Shown piece after piece: positions 732 through 8,529 of a stretch of DNA of 8,660 bases. The translations under genes were made by a program, and so were the position numbers. Numbering within the stretch: position 1 is the stretch's first letter; every line of letters begins with the position of its first letter. The stretch is from an archaeon (GTDB taxonomy: Archaea > Thermoproteota > Nitrososphaeria > Nitrososphaerales > UBA183): assembly GCA_021807225.1 (NCBI GenBank), contig JAKAPI010000026.1, positions 1-8,660 on the forward strand, in the 5' to 3' direction. The notes below the pieces were generated by a model. The model did not search any database. It saw only the letters and a program-made list of their open reading frames with translations, and was not told where the DNA came from.

Positions 732-2711
732 CTACAGAGAATATTTGATCAGGAGGCTCCTGAGCACATCGGCCACGTCTTCGGCTTTGTCAGTGGTCGT
801 CTCCAGGTACTCGTAGACCTCCTTCTCTTTGATGACGTCGAGGGGCGAGGCGGCACCGGGGCCGGTGAAGAGCCTGGCAAGGCATGAGTGGAGCAGGTCG
901 TCTGCGTCGTTCTCGAGTTCATGGATCTTGATGGCTGCGGCGTCGATGGCCACTGTCGCCTCGACTCCCTTAAGGGCGATGATGGCGGTCCTGATCTCCT
1001 TTGCCTGCCCCAAGATGATGTCGGTGAACTTCACTACTTCAGGGCTGAACGCGCGCAGGTGATAGATGCTCATCCTCGACACCGATGCGTCGATGAAGTC
1101 AAGGGTATCATCGAGCGTCTTAAGGAGCCTGGTCACGTCGTCCCTATCGATAGGGGCCAGGAACTTCTTGTCCAGCTTGATGAACGCCTCGTGGACGATG
1201 TCGTCCCCTGCGTGCTCGTACTGCTTGACGTCGATGGCGAGCGCCCCCACGTCCGGGTTCGGCTCCTGTGAGAGTTGGACCGCGCGGTCATGGAGCAGCT
1301 GTGCGGCCCCCTCGAGGTTGGCCGATATCTTGTCGAAAGTATCATAGAACGACTTGAAGATCTCTGAGACGTCGTCGAGAGAAAGGCGTTTCGTCTCAGT
1401 CCCCAGGAAAATCGTGAGGACCGCTCCCAGCAAGCACGCCACGCTGACGACCTCGAGCATCTCTGCGGCGCCTATTGTAGCGAGGATCAGTGGGAGGAAG
1501 AAGGTCGCCACCACCGCGCCCACTTTTCCAACTGTGGCGGCGAGGCCGTGACCGGTCCCTCTGAGCCTCGTGGGAAAGAGTTCGACTGGGTAGATCCAGG
1601 TCGTCGTGTTCGGCCCCATGTTCTCGAAGATGTAGAACACGCCGAAGAACCCGGCGAGTGCGAGCAATGAAGTGGACTGGTAGTAGGCATACCCCAGCAG
1701 GGGAGCCGCCATACCGAAGAAACCTATGATCTGGAGTGGTTTCCTTCCGACCACGTCTATCAGCGCGATGGCCAATAGGTAGCCGAGCCCGGCAAAGATG
1801 AAGAGCTCGCCCGAAGCGTAAACCGAAGCGAGGAGGGGCTTGGAAGGACCATAGATCGACTTGATGAGGGTGGGGGTAAGTATCCCGATGCCGTAGACGC
1901 CCACGTCGACCAAGAACCAGCTGAGCGAGGTGAAGAGGACCCTCTTGCCGTAGGGAGAGAGAAGCAGTTCACGGACAGACGCCCTTTCAGTGACGGCCTC
2001 GAGCTTTTCCTCAGGGACCTGATAGCCGAAGAACCCTGTGAGCACCTTCTGCGCCGCTTCGGTCTTGCCGTGTGAGATGTACCAGCGGGGCGTCTCGGGC
2101 ATGCGCGTCCTTGCTGTGAGCGCGATGAGGGCAGGGACGACCCCTGACAGCAGCATGTACCGCCACGCGTCGGGGCCAAGCGGAGCCAGGAGTACGACCG
2201 CTATGACGCCTCCGATTAGCCCGAGCCCCTGGAAAGAGAAGACGGAAGCGATCAGCTTTCCCCGGTGTTTGCTGCTGACGAACTCGGTGATGTATGACGC
2301 GCTTATCGGATAGTCGGCGCCGATGCCGATGCCCAGGAGGAACCTGAAGAGATAGAGCTCCCAAAGATTCTGGGCGAATGCTGAAGCGGCGGCGAAGACC
2401 ACGAAGAAGAGCAGGTCGATGACGTACAGCCTCTTCCTGCCGAGCTTGTCGGCGAGGTTCCCGAAGAAGACTGCCCCGAAGACGGCACCCAGAAGGGCCG
2501 CAGAGATGATCAGTGCGGTGTCGAAGCTGCTTGTGACGTACGGGATGAACAGGACGGCGGCACCGATGATGAAGAGGTCGTAGCCGTCCATGAACACCCC
2601 CGCCCCTGAAAGGACGAGTACCTTGATGGTCGACCTGGTGACCTTTCCAGATTCTATCTGCCCGAGGAGCGAGGCTCCGTCTGACTTCTTGGTCTGGTCG
2701 CTTGGCTGCAT
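732..2711 (-). CDS. MFS phosphate:H+ symporter (PHS family) fused to a C-terminal DUF47/PhoU-like domain
   Basis: The 659-aa inner-membrane protein should import inorganic phosphate with protons. Residues about 30-440 form a 12-TM MFS transporter: MDGYDLF (41-47) in TM1, NLADKLGRKR (85-94) in the TM2-3 loop, GADYPISAS (131-139), PETPRWY (205-211), VVGRKP (320-325) and GPNTTTWIYPVELFPTR (366-382). Y134, Q161, W265, D269, Y273, N368 and K396 reproduce the spacing of the phosphate-site residues of fungal PiPT (Y150, Q177, W320, D324, Y328, N431, K459, from memory). Residues about 445-659 match DUF47 (PhoU_div) over its usual length of about 205-215 aa. They include acidic metal-binding motifs of the E/DxxxD type: E499-D503, D534-D538, E598-D602 and E637-D641. 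DUF47 proteins normally accompany Pit-type transporters as separate polypeptides, so this fusion to an MFS carrier is unusual. The ATG start at 2709-2711 has no Shine-Dalgarno; a CTTAAG TATA-like box lies about 41 bp upstream. The gap to the DUF84 gene is 54 bp. Confidence 0.93.
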   Translation of the reverse strand: MQPSDQTKKSDGASLLGQIESGKVTRSTIKVLVLSGAGVFMDGYDLFIIGAAVLFIPYVTSSFDTALIISAALLGAVFGAVFFGNLADKLGRKRLYVIDLLFFVVFAAASAFAQNLWELYLFRFLLGIGIGADYPISASYITEFVSSKHRGKLIASVFSFQGLGLIGGVIAVVLLAPLGPDAWRYMLLSGVVPALIALTARTRMPETPRWYISHGKTEAAQKVLTGFFGYQVPEEKLEAVTERASVRELLLSPYGKRVLFTSLSWFLVDVGVYGIGILTPTLIKSIYGPSKPLLASVYASGELFIFAGLGYLLAIALIDVVGRKPLQIIGFFGMAAPLLGYAYYQSTSLLALAGFFGVFYIFENMGPNTTTWIYPVELFPTRLRGTGHGLAATVGKVGAVVATFFLPLILATIGAAEMLEVVSVACLLGAVLTIFLGTETKRLSLDDVSEIFKSFYDTFDKISANLEGAAQLLHDRAVQLSQEPNPDVGALAIDVKQYEHAGDDIVHEAFIKLDKKFLAPIDRDDVTRLLKTLDDTLDFIDASVSRMSIYHLRAFSPEVVKFTDIILGQAKEIRTAIIALKGVEATVAIDAAAIKIHELENDADDLLHSCLARLFTGPGAASPLDVIKEKEVYEYLETTTDKAEDVADVLRSLLIKYSL

Positions 2712-2765: not shown

Positions 2766-3293
2766 TCAGAGCCTGTAGACACCCCTGTGCAACCAGGGGA
2801 TTAGAGCGGTCACAACGCACTGTTCGGTCAGGTCGGCCCTCGAAACCTCTCCTCTAGTCAGGAAGTGGATCAGTCCACCCTTGTCACCTACTTCAGAGAT
2901 CCCGCTCACTTTTTCAGCCCAGCGCTCGAGCTCGCTTCCTTCCCTGAACAGTTTCTCCATGTCCTCCCTGGGGAGAGAATAGCCGGCCGAGTGGCCGAGG
3001 GACGTCCTCCCGGACAGGTCTGCGACGGCGGCGACCTGGTTGTCGAAGAACACCTCCCCGATCTCGAAGATGCCCGCCTCGACCCCCACGCCGAAGTCTC
3101 CACCTGCATTCGACAGCGCGAACTTGGCCCTCGCTGTCGCACCTGAGGCCATCTCTTCCAGGCCCCTCGGCTGTGCTTTGGAGACGGCTGCTGCATCTAC
3201 GGACCTGAGCTCGACCTTTGGGAAGTATTTCTCGAACGCCCGCCTGATCCCTTCTACCTTGGCAGGGTTCCTCGTACCTACCGCGACTATCAC
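2766..3293 (-). CDS. yjjX: DUF84 family inosine/xanthosine triphosphatase (YjjX-type)
   Basis: The 175-aa cytosolic enzyme belongs to the DUF84 (NTPase_I-T) family, which hydrolyses ITP and XTP to the monophosphates and so removes deaminated purine nucleotides. Family signatures are clear: an N-terminal beta strand and loop VGTRNPAKVEGIRRAF (residues 5-20), the GVEAGI segment (about 69-74), and a C-terminal block VGDKGGLIHFLTRGEVSR (about 135-152) followed by an acidic/Gln helix ending in ALIPW. Length is normal for the family (about 170-180 aa). The start codon is GTG (3291-3293), placed by the need to include the first beta strand IVAVGT. There is no Shine-Dalgarno, and a TTAATA box 28 bp upstream suggests a leaderless transcript. 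The gene follows korB after 108 bp and precedes the transporter. It is probably a housekeeping gene rather than part of either theme. Confidence 0.9.
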   Translation of the reverse strand: MIVAVGTRNPAKVEGIRRAFEKYFPKVELRSVDAAAVSKAQPRGLEEMASGATARAKFALSNAGGDFGVGVEAGIFEIGEVFFDNQVAAVADLSGRTSLGHSAGYSLPREDMEKLFREGSELERWAEKVSGISEVGDKGGLIHFLTRGEVSRADLTEQCVVTALIPWLHRGVYRL

Positions 3294-3315
3294 GAAGATA
3301 GGTCGTCCTGACCGG

Positions 3316-3327
3316 GGGTATTAACCG
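3316..3327 (-). promoter_or_regulatory. Candidate TATA box for the DUF84 gene
   Basis: On the minus strand GGTTAATACC contains TTAATA (3319-3324), centred 28 bp before the GTG start of the DUF84 gene. That spacing puts the transcription start at the start codon, as in leaderless archaeal messages. The gap after korB shows no T-rich terminator, so read-through from korAB is also possible. Confidence 0.35.
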
Positions 3328-3401
3328 TGAGAGGGCGCCTGGAGGTCAGCGATACCGAACGGACATCGGCGTCAGGTAGTTCTGCGGAGGCGAGGTTGAT
3401 T

Positions 3402-4370
3402 CTAGAAGACGCGAAGGTCCTCGAATATCTTGTCGATGTTAGCCAGGGGAGTCCCGTCTGGGCGAGCGATATCCTGGACCGCCGGCGGGTTCGTCTTGTA
3501 TGACGGACTCCTTCCAGCGAGCCTCTCTTCGTAGGTCGGGATGAACTCGTTCTGGTAGAACACTCCTATCGGGGTGCGGTCTCCGAACTCGAACGACTTC
3601 AGCACCGCCTGCTGGACCTTCTTCTCCATCTCGACTTCGTCGTCGGAACGCACGACGCCGTCATACCCGGTCTCTTCGAGCTTGTATGTCCTCGGCTTCG
3701 GCTTCCCTGCGGCGTCGAGGTTACCTTCGCCTGCCCAGTACTCTTTCGTCTGGATGTCGTTGTAGGTGGGGCAGGGCTGGAGTACGTCGAGAAACGCATA
3801 CCCTTTGTGGTTTATCCCCTTGACTATCAGGTCCTTCAGATGGCGGACGTCGTAGGAGTACCCCCTTGCGACCCAGGTATATCCCGAAGCTACTGCGAGC
3901 ATGATGGGGTTAATGCTCTGGTTGATGTTTGGCGACGTCAGGGACTTCGTCTTCTTCCCAAGCCCTAGGGTTGGAGACGCCTGCCCCTTGGTGAGGCCGT
4001 AGACCTCGTTGTCATGGATGATGTAGAGCATGTCGATATTTCTCCTTCCTGAGTTGACGAAATGGCCCGCACCTATCCCCATCCCGTCCCCGTCCCCTCC
4101 TTCGACGACGACGTTGAGGTTGGGGTTCGCGAGCTTGATTCCGGTGGCGAACGGGACGGCTCTGCCGTGGAGCGTATGAACCCCATAAGTCTTGATGAAA
4201 TGAGGCACCTTGGATGAACACCCGACGCCTGAGACAACCACCGTGTTGCTCGGGTCGGCGCTCATCTCGGCGAGAGCCATCTGGACCGCGTTCAGGATGC
4301 CGAAGTCTCCGCAGCCTGGGCACCAGTCGTTGTGCGCCGACGTCTTAAGGTCAGAGAGCTTAAGCGCCAT
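3402..4370 (-). CDS. korB: 2-oxoacid:ferredoxin oxidoreductase, beta subunit
   Basis: The 322-aa cytosolic subunit binds thiamine diphosphate and the electron-carrying 4Fe-4S cluster of a 2-oxoacid:ferredoxin oxidoreductase. With KorA it oxidises 2-oxoacids (2-oxoglutarate, pyruvate or similar) and CoA to acyl-CoA, CO2 and reduced ferredoxin. WCPGCGDFG (16-24), C51 in GVGCSS and C200 in QPCPTYN supply four cysteines (C17, C20, C51, C200) that match the cluster ligands of the Sulfolobus enzyme. [10 protein letters not shown] (91-100), with N121 in [12 protein letters not shown], is the Mg-ThDP site. The C-terminal part ends in the usual TYEERL region and a short tail. There is no fused ferredoxin domain, as in other two-subunit archaeal enzymes. 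The ATG start overlaps the 3' end of korA by 11 bp, so the two are co-translated from one message. Substrate range cannot be told from sequence alone: the archaeal two-subunit enzymes are often broad, so kor versus por naming is a convention here. Confidence 0.95.
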
Positions 4371-6336
4371 GCTTCAACACCAGTTTTGTCGGGGCCTTCC
4401 CCTCGTGTATCATCTTAAGGGAGTCGTAGATCTCTTCGGCGGACATCGGTCGCCCGTTGTATTTCACGACAAGCTGCTCGATGGGAACACAGGTCTTCTC
4501 ACGGGTGACCCCCACAAGCTGAGCTGAGAAGTTCATCTCGATGCCTACTACCTTCTTCGCTTTCGAGAGAATCTTAGTCGCGTATTCTGTCGGGAACGGG
4601 TTGATGAGCCTGATCTGCAGGAAGTTGACGCTTACGCCCTCCTGTTTCAGCCACTCCATAGCATCAAGGATTGCCCCCTTCGTTGAGCCCCAACTCAGGA
4701 CAGTGATGTCAGCGTTCTCGGGACCGAAGAAGTTGACTCTCTCCGCGATTGGTATCTCCTTGTCTGCGAGGTCCACCTTGCCCATCCTCTTGTCCATCAT
4801 GAAGTCGCGGTTGACCGGGTCTTCGCTGATGTGCCCGAGCTCGTCGTGCTCGTCCCCGGTGTACCAGTTGACACCACCCTTGGTGCCAAGCGGGGCCCTG
4901 GGGGAAACGCCGTTAGAGGTGTGCTTGAACCGCTTGAACTCGCCGTTGACAGCATCCGTGATTTCCTTGAGGAAGACACCCCTGTCGATCTTCACCTTGT
5001 TGACGTCGAACATAGGCATGGTCGCATCGGAGTTGGCGAGGGCCTTGTCGACGATGTGGATGACCGGCGTCTGGTAGACCTCCGAGTAGTTGAACGCCCT
5101 GACTGTGTCGTAGAAGGCCTCGTCCAAGTCACCGCTCGCGAGGACGAACCTTGGGAACTCGCCGTGCCCCGCATGGAGCGCGAACCTGAGGTCTCCCTGT
5201 TCGTGTCGCGTAGGGAGCCCTGTGCTCGGCCCTCCGCGTGAGTAGAGCGTCACCACCACCGGGACTTCATTCATCCCTGCGTAGCCGAGGCCTTCGGCCA
5301 TGAGGGAGAAGCCTGGGCCTGACGTTGAAGTGGACGACCTGACGCCTGCCAACCCTCCGCCTATGGCCATCGTCACGGCAGCGATCTCGTCCTCTGACTG
5401 GACCACGGCGATGCTCCCCTTGGCTTTCATTGCGGCGACTTCAGCGGTCTGGGGGTTCTCCTGAGCGGAGTGCCCGTCCAGATCGATTTCAGAATGAGCC
5501 TCGAGGAACTCGCTCTCGTCGCTCGCAGGTGTGATGGGGTAGTAAGTCTGGAACCTGCAACCAGCCAGCTCCTTCGCCATGGCGACCACCGTGTTCCCTC
5601 TGACGAAGAGCCTTGTCTCGTCAACCACAGATGGAGAGAGCTTCGTCCCGAAGCTCCCGTTGTATTTCTCTTCCATGTAATCGTATGCCGCGCCCACGGC
5701 GTCGGCGTTCATCTCGGCTACCTTGGGTTTCGACTTGAACTGTTTCCTGACCGCATCTTTGACGACGTTTTCGTCATAAGAGAGGAGCGCGAAAGAAGCC
5801 GCTACGGCCATGGTATTGAGCATCCTCTGGAGAGTGCTGAGAGAGCTCTCGCCGTGCTTCGCCCCGACTTCCTTCAGTATGTCGTTGTAGGGGACAGGAT
5901 AGATGTGGACCCCGCGTCTTCGTGCGAGCTCGAGCATCCCCTTCACGTCGGCGGACAGCCCAGCCCTTGAGAACTCGGCGTTCAAGGCCGCCCTTACGTT
6001 CGCTTCAATCGTTGGAATCTGGTCGAGCCGCTTCGGGTCCTGGTCCGGGTCGTAGATTATTGCCCCCTCCTTCCTGACTTCAAGAGCGTGACGGAAGATG
6101 GTCTCCTCTTCGAATGTGGCAAGCATGTCTACCGTGTCGACGTGAGACCTGATGGTCCCTCTCGAGACGCGTACCTGGAAATAGCTGTGCTCGCCTTTGA
6201 TGTTCGAATAATACTCCCTCTTGCCGAAGACTTGGAGCCCGCCCGCAGCAGCCGCCTTCGCGAAGAACTGGGCAGATGTGTCGACACCGCTCCCCTGGAC
6301 CCCGCCAATCATCCACGAAAAGTCGTCTCTCTTCAA
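4360..6336 (-). CDS. korA: 2-oxoacid:ferredoxin oxidoreductase, fused gamma-alpha subunit
   Basis: The 658-aa protein carries the gamma domain (residues about 8-195, opening with [16 protein letters not shown]) fused to the alpha subunit (about 245-650). The fusion is typical of aerobic and other two-subunit archaeal enzymes, in contrast to four-subunit types. The alpha part shows YPITPAS (266-272), the 2-oxoacid and CoA-proximal motif; [11 protein letters not shown] (337-347); and [16 protein letters not shown] (367-382), the substrate-loop region. The C-terminal domain II reads [10 protein letters not shown] (547-556) and QIRLINPFP (574-582). Length is normal. The first codon is TTG (6334-6336), since no ATG lies in frame upstream. 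The first ATG in frame is residue 9, immediately before IGG, which would leave almost no N-terminal arm, so TTG is favoured. No Shine-Dalgarno is seen. A TTCTTAAAC box sits about 40 bp upstream in the divergent region. The stop TAA (4360-4362) lies inside korB, giving an 11-bp overlap. The gene is divergent from the AbrB-PhoU regulator. Confidence 0.95.
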
Positions 6337-6417: not shown

Positions 6418-7449
6418 ATGGATGAGAGGAGGCGCATCCAGAAGGTCGGCTACAATTCTCTCGCGATTTCGATACCCAAACAGTACGCGAAAGAGATGAA
6501 CCTCGATAAGGGCGACACCCTGTTAGTCAGAGAGGATATGGACGGGACGCTCAGGCTGATCCCGTCGACGAGGGCCAAGGAGGCGGCGAAGGCCATACTG
6601 AGGGCTGACCAGGCAGGGAGCGGAGAGATGCTGACGATGCTCGTCGTGGGGGCGTATGCTCTCGGCTACGACACCATCGAAGTAGTGGGAAAGGAGCCCC
6701 TCGAGCAATCGACCGCTGACCAGGTGCTCGGCGCCATAAGGCGGCTCAGGGGGATGGAGGTGGTCGAGTCTGACGAGAAACGCATCGTCGCCCAGAGCTT
6801 CATGGACCCTACGAAGTTCCCAGTGGATTCGCTGGTCAAGCGGCTCCAGATCTTGGTATCCAGGAGCCTCGATCGGGTGATAGATTCTCTCGACCTGCGG
6901 CAGACAGCGGGCCTGAATGAGGTTTCGCGCATCCAGGAAGAGATTGACGAGCTCTACTGGCTGATTTCGAGGCAGCTATTGGTAGCCCTGAGCAGGAGGG
7001 AGCTGGCCTCATCGATAGGCATCGAGTCCCCCCTGCACGCGTCTGGGGACAGGGTGTCGGCCAAGACTCTGGACGAGATAGGGGGCATCATACAGGACGC
7101 GGCTGAAGAGTTGGTGAGGCTAAGGGGATTGCGGACCAAGATGGACCAGAAGGTCGCGGCGAGCGTGCAGACGCTGGCAGCGAAGACAAGGGAGGCGTTC
7201 AACACCACGGTGGAGAGCCTTTTGACCCCGGACATCAAGCTCATCGGGAAGTCGCTCGCGCTTGTGGAAGAGACGATGCAGCTCGAGAAACAGGTAATGG
7301 ACGAAATCCTGACGACGTCGGGGTCTGGCTATACGAGGGTCCTCGTGTCCTACTTCGGCCAGCTTGCGAGGTACTGCAACATCATAATCGAGATATCATC
7401 CCACAGGCTCCTGAGGAAGACCAGCAGGGTAGTCACGGTACAGCAGTGA
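6418..7449 (+). CDS. AbrB/SpoVT-domain PhoU-like phosphate regulator
   Basis: The 343-aa cytosolic protein combines an N-terminal SpoVT/AbrB swapped-hairpin DNA-binding domain with PhoU-type helical bundles, a layout common in archaea and annotated there as phosphate uptake regulator. Residues 5-48 give the AbrB fold: RRIQKVGYNSLAISIPKQY, then the helix KEMNLDKGD, then the LLVREDMDGTLRLIP hairpin. Residues about 52-125 form a linker domain (LVVGAYALGYDTIEVVG). Residues about 130-235 and 240-335 are two all-helical PhoU-like repeats, with acidic pairs in IQEEIDELYW (172-181) and VEETMQLEKQVMDE (283-296) where PhoU proteins bind metals; the exact E/DxxxD motif is less clear than in the transporter's DUF47 domain. 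The ATG start is followed directly by the AbrB domain. A TATA box 28 bp upstream implies leaderless translation. Its likely role is sensing phosphate status and binding promoter DNA; its targets are unknown, the divergent promoter being the first candidate. Confidence 0.88.
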   Translation: MDERRRIQKVGYNSLAISIPKQYAKEMNLDKGDTLLVREDMDGTLRLIPSTRAKEAAKAILRADQAGSGEMLTMLVVGAYALGYDTIEVVGKEPLEQSTADQVLGAIRRLRGMEVVESDEKRIVAQSFMDPTKFPVDSLVKRLQILVSRSLDRVIDSLDLRQTAGLNEVSRIQEEIDELYWLISRQLLVALSRRELASSIGIESPLHASGDRVSAKTLDEIGGIIQDAAEELVRLRGLRTKMDQKVAASVQTLAAKTREAFNTTVESLLTPDIKLIGKSLALVEETMQLEKQVMDEILTTSGSGYTRVLVSYFGQLARYCNIIIEISSHRLLRKTSRVVTVQQ

Positions 7450-7484: not shown

Positions 7485-7593
7485 GCGGGGGTAACGAAGC
7501 CTGGTCAACCGTGCGGGACTCAAGATCCGGCCACGCTTCGGATGGGGCATCCCGTCCCTTAGGGGTTCGTGGGTTCAAATCCCACCCCCCGCA
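7485..7593 (+). tRNA. tRNA-Leu (anticodon CAA) with a 24-nt intron
   Basis: All arms can be drawn by hand. The acceptor is GCGGGGG (7485-7491) with CCCCCGC (7586-7592), discriminator A7593 and no encoded CCA. The D-arm is ACG (7494-7496) with CGT (7510-7512) around a loop containing GGT. The anticodon stem is CGGGA (7514-7518) with TCCCG (7550-7554), split by an intron. The anticodon is CAA (7521-7523), reading UUG. The long variable arm TCCC-TTA-GGGG (7555-7565) marks class II tRNA-Leu. The T-arm is GTGGG (7569-7573) with CCCAC (7581-7585) around TTCAAAT. Removing the intron gives a mature length of 85 nt, normal for tRNA-Leu. Box A-like (D-arm) and box B-like (GGTTCAAATCC) internal sequences are present. 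Confidence 0.96.
7525..7548 (+). other. tRNA-Leu intron between positions 37 and 38 (canonical BHB)
   Basis: The 24-nt intron follows G37 (7524) and precedes A38 (7549). The bulge-helix-bulge folds perfectly. The central 4-bp helix is CTCA (7519-7522) with TGGG (7543-7546). The 5' bulge is A7523-G7524-A7525, cut after the second base; the 3' bulge is G7547-C7548-A7549, also cut after the second base. The intron helix TCCG (7526-7529) pairs with CGGA (7539-7542) around a 9-nt loop. This is the substrate of the archaeal splicing endonuclease. Cut positions are predicted from the fold. Confidence 0.92.
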
Positions 7594-7624
7594 CTCTGGT
7601 TTCACACAAGGCGGAAAGGAGCGG

Positions 7625-8529
7625 TCATAACATGCATTTACTCGCAAACACTCCCATGCGTTCTTCAACGCCAGTAACGCCGTTTGGCAGGAGTATCGGC
7701 GAGAACTGATCAAACCCCGCGGCGATGTATCGGCCGAGCTCTTCTCTTACGTCGTATGGAGTTCCGATGATAGCTTCGGGGTCTTCCTTCCTCATCCCGT
7801 CGACGAAAGACGTCCGAGTCTCTCCTTCCTTCTTCAGGCCCGTGTAGTCCAGGGCCGAAGCTAGCAAGTCCGAGTCGTTCTCCATGACAACGAAGTGTTT
7901 CAGGATGGCCGACACGCTCTCCCCGTTCCTACCTGCCGCAGCTGCGGCTTCCTGGACGATATCGGGCTTCATCTGGGCCTGAGCTGGGCCCGTGCAGTGG
8001 ATGTTAATCGCGTCCGCGTACTTGCCGGCCAATTGCAAAAGTCGCTTCGACCGCCTTTCCCCAACCCAGATCGGGGGAACTCCCCTTCGAGGTTGAGTGT
8101 CGACCCGTTGAGTTTGTAGAGCCGCCCGTTGTGGAAGAACCCGCCTCTGTTCATGCTCAGCCCCCTGATGATTGCAAGCGACTCCTCCATGGCGTCCAGC
8201 CTCTCGCCGGCTGAAACGAATGGGAAACCGTGTGACGAGTATTCTGTTTCCTTTCCGCTTCCAACCCCGAGACAGAGAAACGACCTTCCGCCACTGATTG
8301 AATGAAGCGAAAGGGCGGAGTTTGCGAGGGTTACCGGGTGCTTAGTTGTAGTGCTTGAAGCCAAAGTCCCGAGCCGAAGCTTGGATGTCACAGAAACCAG
8401 CGCCGAGAGGGCCACAAACGGGTCAGGTCGGCCGTTCGGCTTCCGTGGTTGAGAGAAGTGCTCCCCAAATCCAATCCCGTCGTAGCCAAGCTCTTCCGCC
8501 TTGCGTGACCTTCCATGAGCCGGGTGCAA
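7625..8529 (-). pseudogene. F420-type luciferase-like monooxygenase (LLM), frameshifted and N-terminally incomplete
   Basis: This is a TIM-barrel flavin/F420-dependent oxidoreductase of the bacterial luciferase-like family. The N-terminal frame (from TTG 8527-8529) reads AEELGYDGIGFGEHF, DPFVALSALVS, LRLGTL, TTTKHPVTLANSALSLHSISGGR and LGVGSGKETEY, all typical of F420-type LLM proteins. It then loses the frame at about 8077. The C-terminal frame continues the same family with PIWVGERRSKRLLQLAGKYAD, IGTPYDVREELGRYIAAGFDQF and EERMGVFA, ending at TGA 7625-7627. The break maps to a run of five Gs on the + strand (8073-8077). A sixth G would join the parts as EFPPIWVGE, giving about 301 aa, close to a normal length. 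The start is also abnormal: beta strand 1 seems to be AGYVLHPA, but an in-frame TAA (8545-8547) sits two codons before it, and only a TTG within it can start. A CTATAAAT sequence (8543-8550) overlaps this point. The gene is either a decaying pseudogene or an intact gene with sequencing errors. Confidence 0.85.

Follow-up and report, generated by a model that had tools for sequence, protein, structure and literature searches.

A PHS-type carrier joined in one chain to a DUF47 domain in archaea: a putative self-regulated phosphate importer

Here we describe a gene on an 8,660-nucleotide stretch of archaeal DNA (positions 1 to 8,660 of contig JAKAPI010000026.1, assembly GCA_021807225.1, Nitrososphaerales; hereafter the window) whose 659-residue product joins a carrier of the major facilitator superfamily (MFS), of the phosphate:H+ symporter (PHS) type, to a complete DUF47 domain. 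On balance, we read it as a single-chain, self-regulated, H+-coupled importer of inorganic phosphate that probably carries a grafted Pit-type regulator. This reading draws on the conserved sites of both domains, a near-fixed junction between them, an inner-side charge bias, a DUF47 lineage shared with the partners of Pit carriers, and the lack of a high-scoring Pit in the fusion-bearing genomes tested.

Domain architecture and conserved sites

Pfam finds both domains in a single open reading frame (ORF) that starts at an ATG (Table 1). Sugar_tr (PF00083) covers residues 33-452, MFS_1 matches as well (5.2e-35), and PhoU_div/DUF47 (PF01865) covers residues 452-655, from position 10 to position 213 of a 214-position profile. 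The score for PF01865 is 75.5 bits against a gathering score of 24.4, which together with the near-complete profile places the tail in DUF47. An earlier reading of the letters alone (the sequence-only reading) had proposed a complete MFS symporter and a DUF47 domain in one chain, and had named a domain search beyond residue 445 as the check; the match from residue 452 onwards bears this out. Pfam, the predicted structure and the fold search agree on a 12-transmembrane MFS carrier. Among sequences in the PDB, the carrier part matches OsPHT1;11 (1.3e-51) and the fungal phosphate transporter PiPT (7sp5; 1e-45), and the tail matches the PhoU-like protein 3l39 (1.3e-19). The predicted structure consists of an MFS domain followed by a tail of long helices (mean predicted local distance difference test 85.8; predicted template modelling score 0.73). 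Structure-similarity lists for the full-length model are filled by matches to the MFS domain, with SV2A first, by fold only.

E439 and F452 lie 13 residues apart in 60 of 70 aligned rows and 19 apart in the remaining 10. This near-fixed junction suggests that the DUF47 tail is probably held in place and not loosely tethered. A count of loop charges places most Lys and Arg residues in alternating loops on the same side as the N terminus and the tail, an inner-side bias by which the C-terminal DUF47 domain should face the cytoplasm.

The residues of the PiPT phosphate site were taken from the available text of PMC6761603. All seven align in the window protein, as had been read from the letters: Y134, Q161, W265, D269, Y273, N368 and K396 correspond to PiPT Y150, Q177, W320, D324, Y328, N431 and K459, respectively. 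F158 aligns with PiPT F174. On the proton path, the alignment pairs D42, D45, R123 and D133 with PiPT D45, D48, R139 and D149, and D99 occupies the position of PiPT E108.

The four acidic motifs of the DUF47 domain are invariant or nearly so in aligned homologues. Three of them lie where they were first placed (E499-D503, D534-D538 and E637-D641), whereas the third in order, first put at E598-D602, was off by two residues. The conserved pair is E600-D604, invariant in 114 of the 114 rows with letters there (120-row alignment); position 598 is E in 66 of the 120 rows and position 602 is D in 15.

Table 1 Features of the fusion gene and of a neighbouring candidate regulator (positions in the window; residues numbered in the fusion protein).
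Feature	Coordinates	Strand	Evidence
MFS(PHS-type)-DUF47 fusion gene	732..2711	minus	open 659-residue ORF from ATG; Pfam; identical gene in genome G001
12-transmembrane MFS carrier domain, residues 33-452	1356..2615	minus	PF00083 (1e-58); PiPT/PHT1 alignment; model helices; fold matches
Y134, pocket residue (PiPT Y150)	2310..2312	minus	PiPT alignment; homologue rows
Q161 (PiPT Q177)	2229..2231	minus	PiPT alignment; W in 38/120 homologues
W265-D269-Y273 (PiPT W320, D324, Y328)	1893..1919	minus	PiPT alignment; homologue rows
N368 (PiPT N431)	1608..1610	minus	PiPT alignment; homologue rows
K396 (PiPT K459)	1524..1526	minus	PiPT alignment; R in 38/120 homologues
Junction, residues 439-452	1356..1397	minus	E439-F452 spacing in aligned rows
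DUF47/PhoU_div domain, residues 452-655	747..1358	minus	PF01865 (4.9e-21); PDB 3l39 (1.3e-19)
DUF47 acidic motif 1, E499-H500-x-x-D503	1203..1217	minus	conserved rows; H common to Pit-partner DUF47
DUF47 acidic motif 2, D534-x3-D538	1098..1112	minus	conserved rows
DUF47 acidic motif 3, E600-N601-x-x-D604	900..914	minus	conserved rows; replaces E598-D602
DUF47 acidic motif 4, E637-x3-D641	789..803	minus	conserved rows
AbrB/MazE-like N terminus + PhoU-domain protein, candidate regulator	6418..7449	plus	PF04014 (4.7e-10); PF01895 (1.1e-9)

A DUF47 domain of the Pit-partner lineage

A profile built from fused DUF47 domains scores 150-257 bits at fused loci, 187-214 bits for nine free-standing proteins, and 27-84 bits for 49 other DUF47 proteins. 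In a tree of 79 DUF47 rows, the fused, Pit-partner and fused-type standalone rows stand apart from the rest with a support of 100 in the Shimodaira–Hasegawa-like approximate likelihood ratio test (SH-aLRT), and the fused domains form one cluster (quick tree, SH-aLRT 93). Two motif residues mark the same division: the histidine of EHxxD is found in 43 of 46 fused, 9 of 9 Pit-partner and 0 of 49 other DUF47 rows, and the asparagine of ENxxD in 44 of 46, 9 of 9 and 0 of 49, respectively. The window domain carries both signatures and clusters with Pit-adjacent DUF47. By tree and motif, the fused DUF47 shares ancestry with the free-standing, Pit-adjacent type.

That DUF47 normally partners Pit, as stated in the sequence-only reading, holds for this lineage in 27 of the 27 genomes checked; neither L031, the ninth of the scored proteins, nor rows P0126-P0136, which are standalone, are part of this count. 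In the family of the nearest genome, the free-standing DUF47 of the fused type adjoins Pit (289-310 bits) in 12 of 12 genomes, on the same strand in 11 and on the opposite strand in one (G311); in Thermoplasmatota it does so in 15 of 15, always on the same strand and with DUF47 first. By eye, the Pit partners L144 and L145 have a short leader before the first helix, which the end of the MFS domain replaces in the fusion. In the window itself, Pfam finds Pit in none of the eight ORFs that were scanned.

Genomes with the fusion and genomes with Pit plus DUF47 of the same type do not overlap: they number 8 and 12 of 46 in the family, and 6 and 15 of 145 in Thermoplasmatota. A Pit of at least 150 bits is present in 0 of 6 fused versus 91 of 139 unfused Thermoplasmatota genomes (Fisher p=0.002, relatedness ignored; the 91 are the 106 genomes with a Pit match minus 15, one of them fused, whose best match is weak). 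Within the family, a high-scoring Pit occurs in 0 of 8 fused versus 12 of 38 unfused genomes, which is not significant (Fisher p=0.09). Across all 42 fused genomes of the genome scan described below, Pit (PF01384) matches 18, none above 133.2 bits; PstA (TIGR00974) matches 27 at E up to 0.001, eight of them above the cut-off; and Na_Pi_cotrans (PF02690) matches none of the 42.

No Pit, PstA or Na/Pi match is present in 11 of the 42 (G346, G371, G372, G374, G375, G376, G377, G378, G381, G383 and G386), among them the complete chromosome of Ca. Micrarchaeum A_DKE (G377, locus L064), although several others of the eleven are small and may be incomplete. With the whole model at 1e-5, G371, G372, G374, G375 and G386 give no match besides the fusion, and G377 gives one more, to an MFS with a lower score (148 bits). 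According to the available text of PMC8975820, Ca. Micrarchaeum A_DKE has few transporters and likely depends on its host, which tempers the point that the fusion is its sole importer. A comparable replacement is described in the part of PMC9239043 at hand: in Ca. N. brevis, Pst and Pit (DUF47 plus pit) swap at one locus beside phoU.

Separately, ten Thermoplasmatota genomes without the fusion (G432, G436, G440, G451, G482, G485, G490, G502, G514 and G520) each give 7-8 matches to the carrier part, with only eight candidates scored, and a low-scoring Pit only; they thus hold many unfused carriers.

Spread and history of the fusion

Both domains are present in 113 of the 120 best homologues (query included; 778 passed the threshold, and scoring was limited to the 8000 candidates with the most shared words). 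Four of the others are partial and three are unfused bacterial carriers. PF00083/MFS and PF01865 occur together in all 70 members of a selected alignment. A genome scan, of which the best 80 of 542 relatives were analysed, yielded 42 loci at which a single frame encodes both MFS and DUF47, including three (L040, L045 and L086) whose carrier frame is short or interrupted, and 38 loci with the carrier and no DUF47. By title, the fused loci come from Nitrososphaerota, Marsarchaeota, Thermoplasmata, Aciduliprofundum, Micrarchaeota and one metagenome-assembled genome of Thermoprotei; several of these archaea probably live in acid habitats, judging by the record titles. In existing records such proteins are called MFS transporter, MFS family permease, TIGR00153-family phosphate transport protein or DUF47 family protein.

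Within the family of the nearest genome, 8 of 46 genomes carry the fusion, which in one of them is truncated at a contig end; in Thermoplasmatota 6 of 145 genomes carry it, of which G361, the centre of that search, and G368 were already among the loci of the genome scan. At E up to 1e-60 it occurs in 1 of 151 sampled genomes of the phylum. This one is the nearest genome itself, G001, which carries the window gene with identical DNA and is not counted as independent because it may be the same organism. Judged by its homologues, the fusion is real and old and is spread, sparsely, over several archaeal phyla. It is thus not a one-off, and the earlier worry that two separate genes had been read as one is dispelled by the single chains in other genera and in 113 of 120 homologues.

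The fused carriers do not form one MFS clade: this topology was rejected by the approximately unbiased (AU) test (p 2.7e-24, 40 rows), and unfused bacterial and archaeal carriers interleave with them. For 24 fused proteins, the carrier topology is compatible with the DUF47 alignment (p-AU 0.089), but the reverse does not hold, as the DUF47 topology is rejected with the carrier alignment (1.2e-9). These trees are best explained by one old fusion after which DUF47 was lost repeatedly; repeated fusion may be an alternative history. With the fused-type DUF47 model, no two-gene stage of MFS and DUF47 was found in the flanks of the 38 unfused loci. At one locus from Thermoproteus (L096), where the tblastn match runs longer than the MFS frame, the three forward frames beyond it hold no DUF47 obvious to the eye. 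On inspection by eye, two 'standalone' rows inside the fused cluster (P0123 and P0125) seem to be pieces of fused genes.

DUF47 has also been joined to other carriers. In genome G086, of the phylum of the window, a 606-residue chain (L147:556-2376) combines MFS_1 (PF07690, 2.1e-46) with a C-terminal DUF47 domain (PF01865, 1.2e-23); its carrier is 21% identical to the window protein and best matches the multidrug-type MFS model TIGR00880, below its cut-off. Three homologues of this chain (P0137-P0139) carry both domains along 98-100% of the length of L147, and the other 79 of its 82 matches have no DUF47 among their listed domains. DUF47 has thus become attached to MFS carriers on more than one occasion, and not always to a carrier of PHS type: this second group resembles the window protein in build and differs in its DHA1-like carrier. 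In Thermoplasmatota, the 757-residue chain L142:237-2510 (G501) combines Pit (PF01384, 1.4e-115) with a C-terminal DUF47 domain; it was the only one scanned for domains among 29 listed Pit frames longer than 700 residues. Like the window protein, it is a phosphate carrier with DUF47 in one chain, but its carrier is Pit and its genome has no match to the window type of DUF47 at E up to 1e-40.

Among known systems, the symporters PiPT, Pho84 and PHT1 share with the window protein the MFS fold, the seven pocket residues with F158, and the acids and arginine of the proton path, but no DUF47 tail was matched in those with solved structures. Pairs of the PitA-PitR type in archaea share its DUF47 lineage; they differ in that the carrier is Pit, whose fold is unrelated to MFS, and the regulator is a separate gene. 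PitR (PhoU2) of Staphylococcus aureus, encoded beside pitA, is likewise a DUF47 protein, but bacterial and free-standing (available text of PMC11705898). The same text describes NptA as a phosphate cotransporter with a PhoU-like domain in one chain, as here, with a carrier of the sodium/phosphate type. Carrier-PhoU fusions are therefore already known in kind, and the PHS-type version extends them to another carrier class. Our literature search, aimed only in part at this protein and made by title and start of abstract, mostly within open-access papers outside supplements and preprints, returned no paper on an MFS-DUF47 protein.

Proposed mechanism and alternatives

We propose that the N-terminal PHS-type carrier would bind phosphate through the pocket known from PiPT, Pho84 and PHT1 and would be driven by the proton gradient. 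The C-terminal four-motif bundle would sit on the cytoplasmic face and read a cytosolic cue, which would be either phosphate or a metal bound at its acidic ExxxD motifs. The cue would change the bundle so that the inner gate is held, and the carrier would be restrained in a phosphate-replete cell, as by a feedback brake. The sequence-only reading had suggested a self-gated importer or a transporter-sensor. The tether of a phosphate-type MFS carrier to DUF47 is supported by Pfam and by the alignment with PiPT; gating and sensing, like the phosphate substrate, the direction of import, the binding of metal and the restraining action, are what we infer from these comparisons.

Several observations weigh against this reading. 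The window protein scores 236.3 bits with TIGR00887, the NCBIfam model of the phosphate:H+ symporter, below its cut-off of 610.3, and 46.4 bits with TIGR00153, below its cut-off of 104.3; it is thus of PHS type and DUF47 type, and falls outside both models. The seven-residue site is also intact in 37 of 41 unfused MFS rows, so the pocket does not mark the fusion, and the 38 unfused loci, in whose flanks no DUF47 was found, indicate that the carrier can evidently do without it. In 38 of the 120 listed homologues (P0068-P0095 and P0098-P0107), Q161 is W and K396 is R, with DUF47 kept; as K449A abolishes transport by AtPHT1;1 (available text of PMC6761603), this subclade may carry another substrate. 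The DUF47 domain on the non-PHS carrier L147 makes DUF47 a weaker sign of phosphate. With PstA in 27 and a low-scoring Pit in 18 of the 42 fused genomes, the fusion is often not the sole importer. None of the counts takes relatedness into account, and the three genome sets behind the tests of exclusion between Pit and the fusion overlap in membership. Finally, in the available part of PMC11705898, two-hybrid assays of the S. aureus counterpart found no interaction between PitR and PitA.

The DUF47 domain could instead be a constitutive, non-regulatory partner that serves the stability, folding or dimerisation of the carrier. Bundles of the PhoU superfamily often dimerise, and both the 13-residue junction in 60 of 70 rows and the one-direction agreement of the two domains' trees would suit a structural role too. 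We consider this unlikely, as four near-invariant acidic motifs are more than a scaffold needs and unfused MFS carriers with the same pocket do without DUF47.

A neighbouring gene bears on a further alternative, in which the protein is a transceptor that senses phosphate flux and whose DUF47 domain signals to a partner instead of gating transport. The candidate partner is the AbrB-PhoU protein of Table 1, whose family is found in 11 of 43 fused loci (window included) versus 1 of 38 unfused loci, the latter match being weak (33 bits; p=0.004 with relatedness ignored). It adjoins the fusion in seven loci (L046, L049, L050, L051, L056, L057 and L060) and is head-to-head with it in four of these (L046, L051, L056 and L057); in the window it lies 3.7 kb from the fusion, past triphosphatase and oxidoreductase genes. 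Pho84, itself a PHS carrier, acts as a transceptor (available text of PMC5159500). Such signalling in place of gating seems improbable here, given that 32 of the 43 fused loci, with flanks of unequal length, have no AbrB-PhoU gene and that the counts ignore relatedness.

It is also possible, though improbable in our view, that the substrate is another oxyanion or a phosphate ester, or that the carrier exports, with DUF47 serving general anion or metal homeostasis. The 38 homologues with two changed pocket residues point in this direction: in MFS trees they group with unfused bacterial carriers, most of which lack N368 too, and their substrate or affinity has possibly changed. The DUF47 domain on a multidrug-like MFS carrier (L147) fits as well. 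The window protein, however, retains all seven pocket residues, and in 11 of the 42 fused genomes none of the models for other phosphate importers gave a match. The chance that assembly or gene calling joined two genes is negligible: some homologues (P0121-P0125, L040 and L045) are incomplete or have an interrupted frame, but intact fused ORFs in other genera, with both domains in 113 of 120 listed homologues and 70 of 70 aligned members, refute it.

The remaining window genes are recorded here as neighbours. Upstream of the fusion, positions 2766-6336 (minus strand) encode a DUF84 inosine/xanthosine triphosphatase and a two-gene 2-oxoacid:ferredoxin oxidoreductase, whose alpha (4360-6336) and beta (3402-4370) genes overlap. 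A luciferase-like monooxygenase (PF00296) at 7625-8529 (minus strand) lies in two pieces whose frames overlap (7625-8038 and 7969-8529), which is either a broken gene or a sequence error. Positions 7490-7595 (plus strand) have, by eye, the look of an intron-bearing archaeal tRNA-Leu, for which ARAGORN gave no report and Rfam none at its gathering score; neither program matched anywhere in the window.

Returning to the self-regulated importer, a broader view is possible, though we would stop short of calling it probable. DUF47 would be a portable, carrier-independent brake on phosphate import that moved from Pit to MFS in archaea, the fusion replacing the Pit-DUF47 pair genome by genome and becoming the sole recognisable importer in reduced Micrarchaeota, with AbrB-PhoU adding transcriptional control. 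If so, PhoU-type modules would operate at two levels, protein and gene, and the fusions to Pit (L142) and to a DHA1-like MFS carrier (L147) would be further cases of grafting. The action of DUF47 on phosphate carriers is unsettled, PitR being encoded beside PitA yet with no interaction detected (PMC11705898, available part). That a single regulator lineage has switched between Pit and MFS carriers argues for an action of DUF47 on import generally and not on one fold, and its natural fusion, in one chain, to a carrier from a structurally solved class opens its role to comparison with and without the domain. For archaeal genomes in which the searched models found no other phosphate importer, among them some that are much reduced, the fusion is also a likely one.

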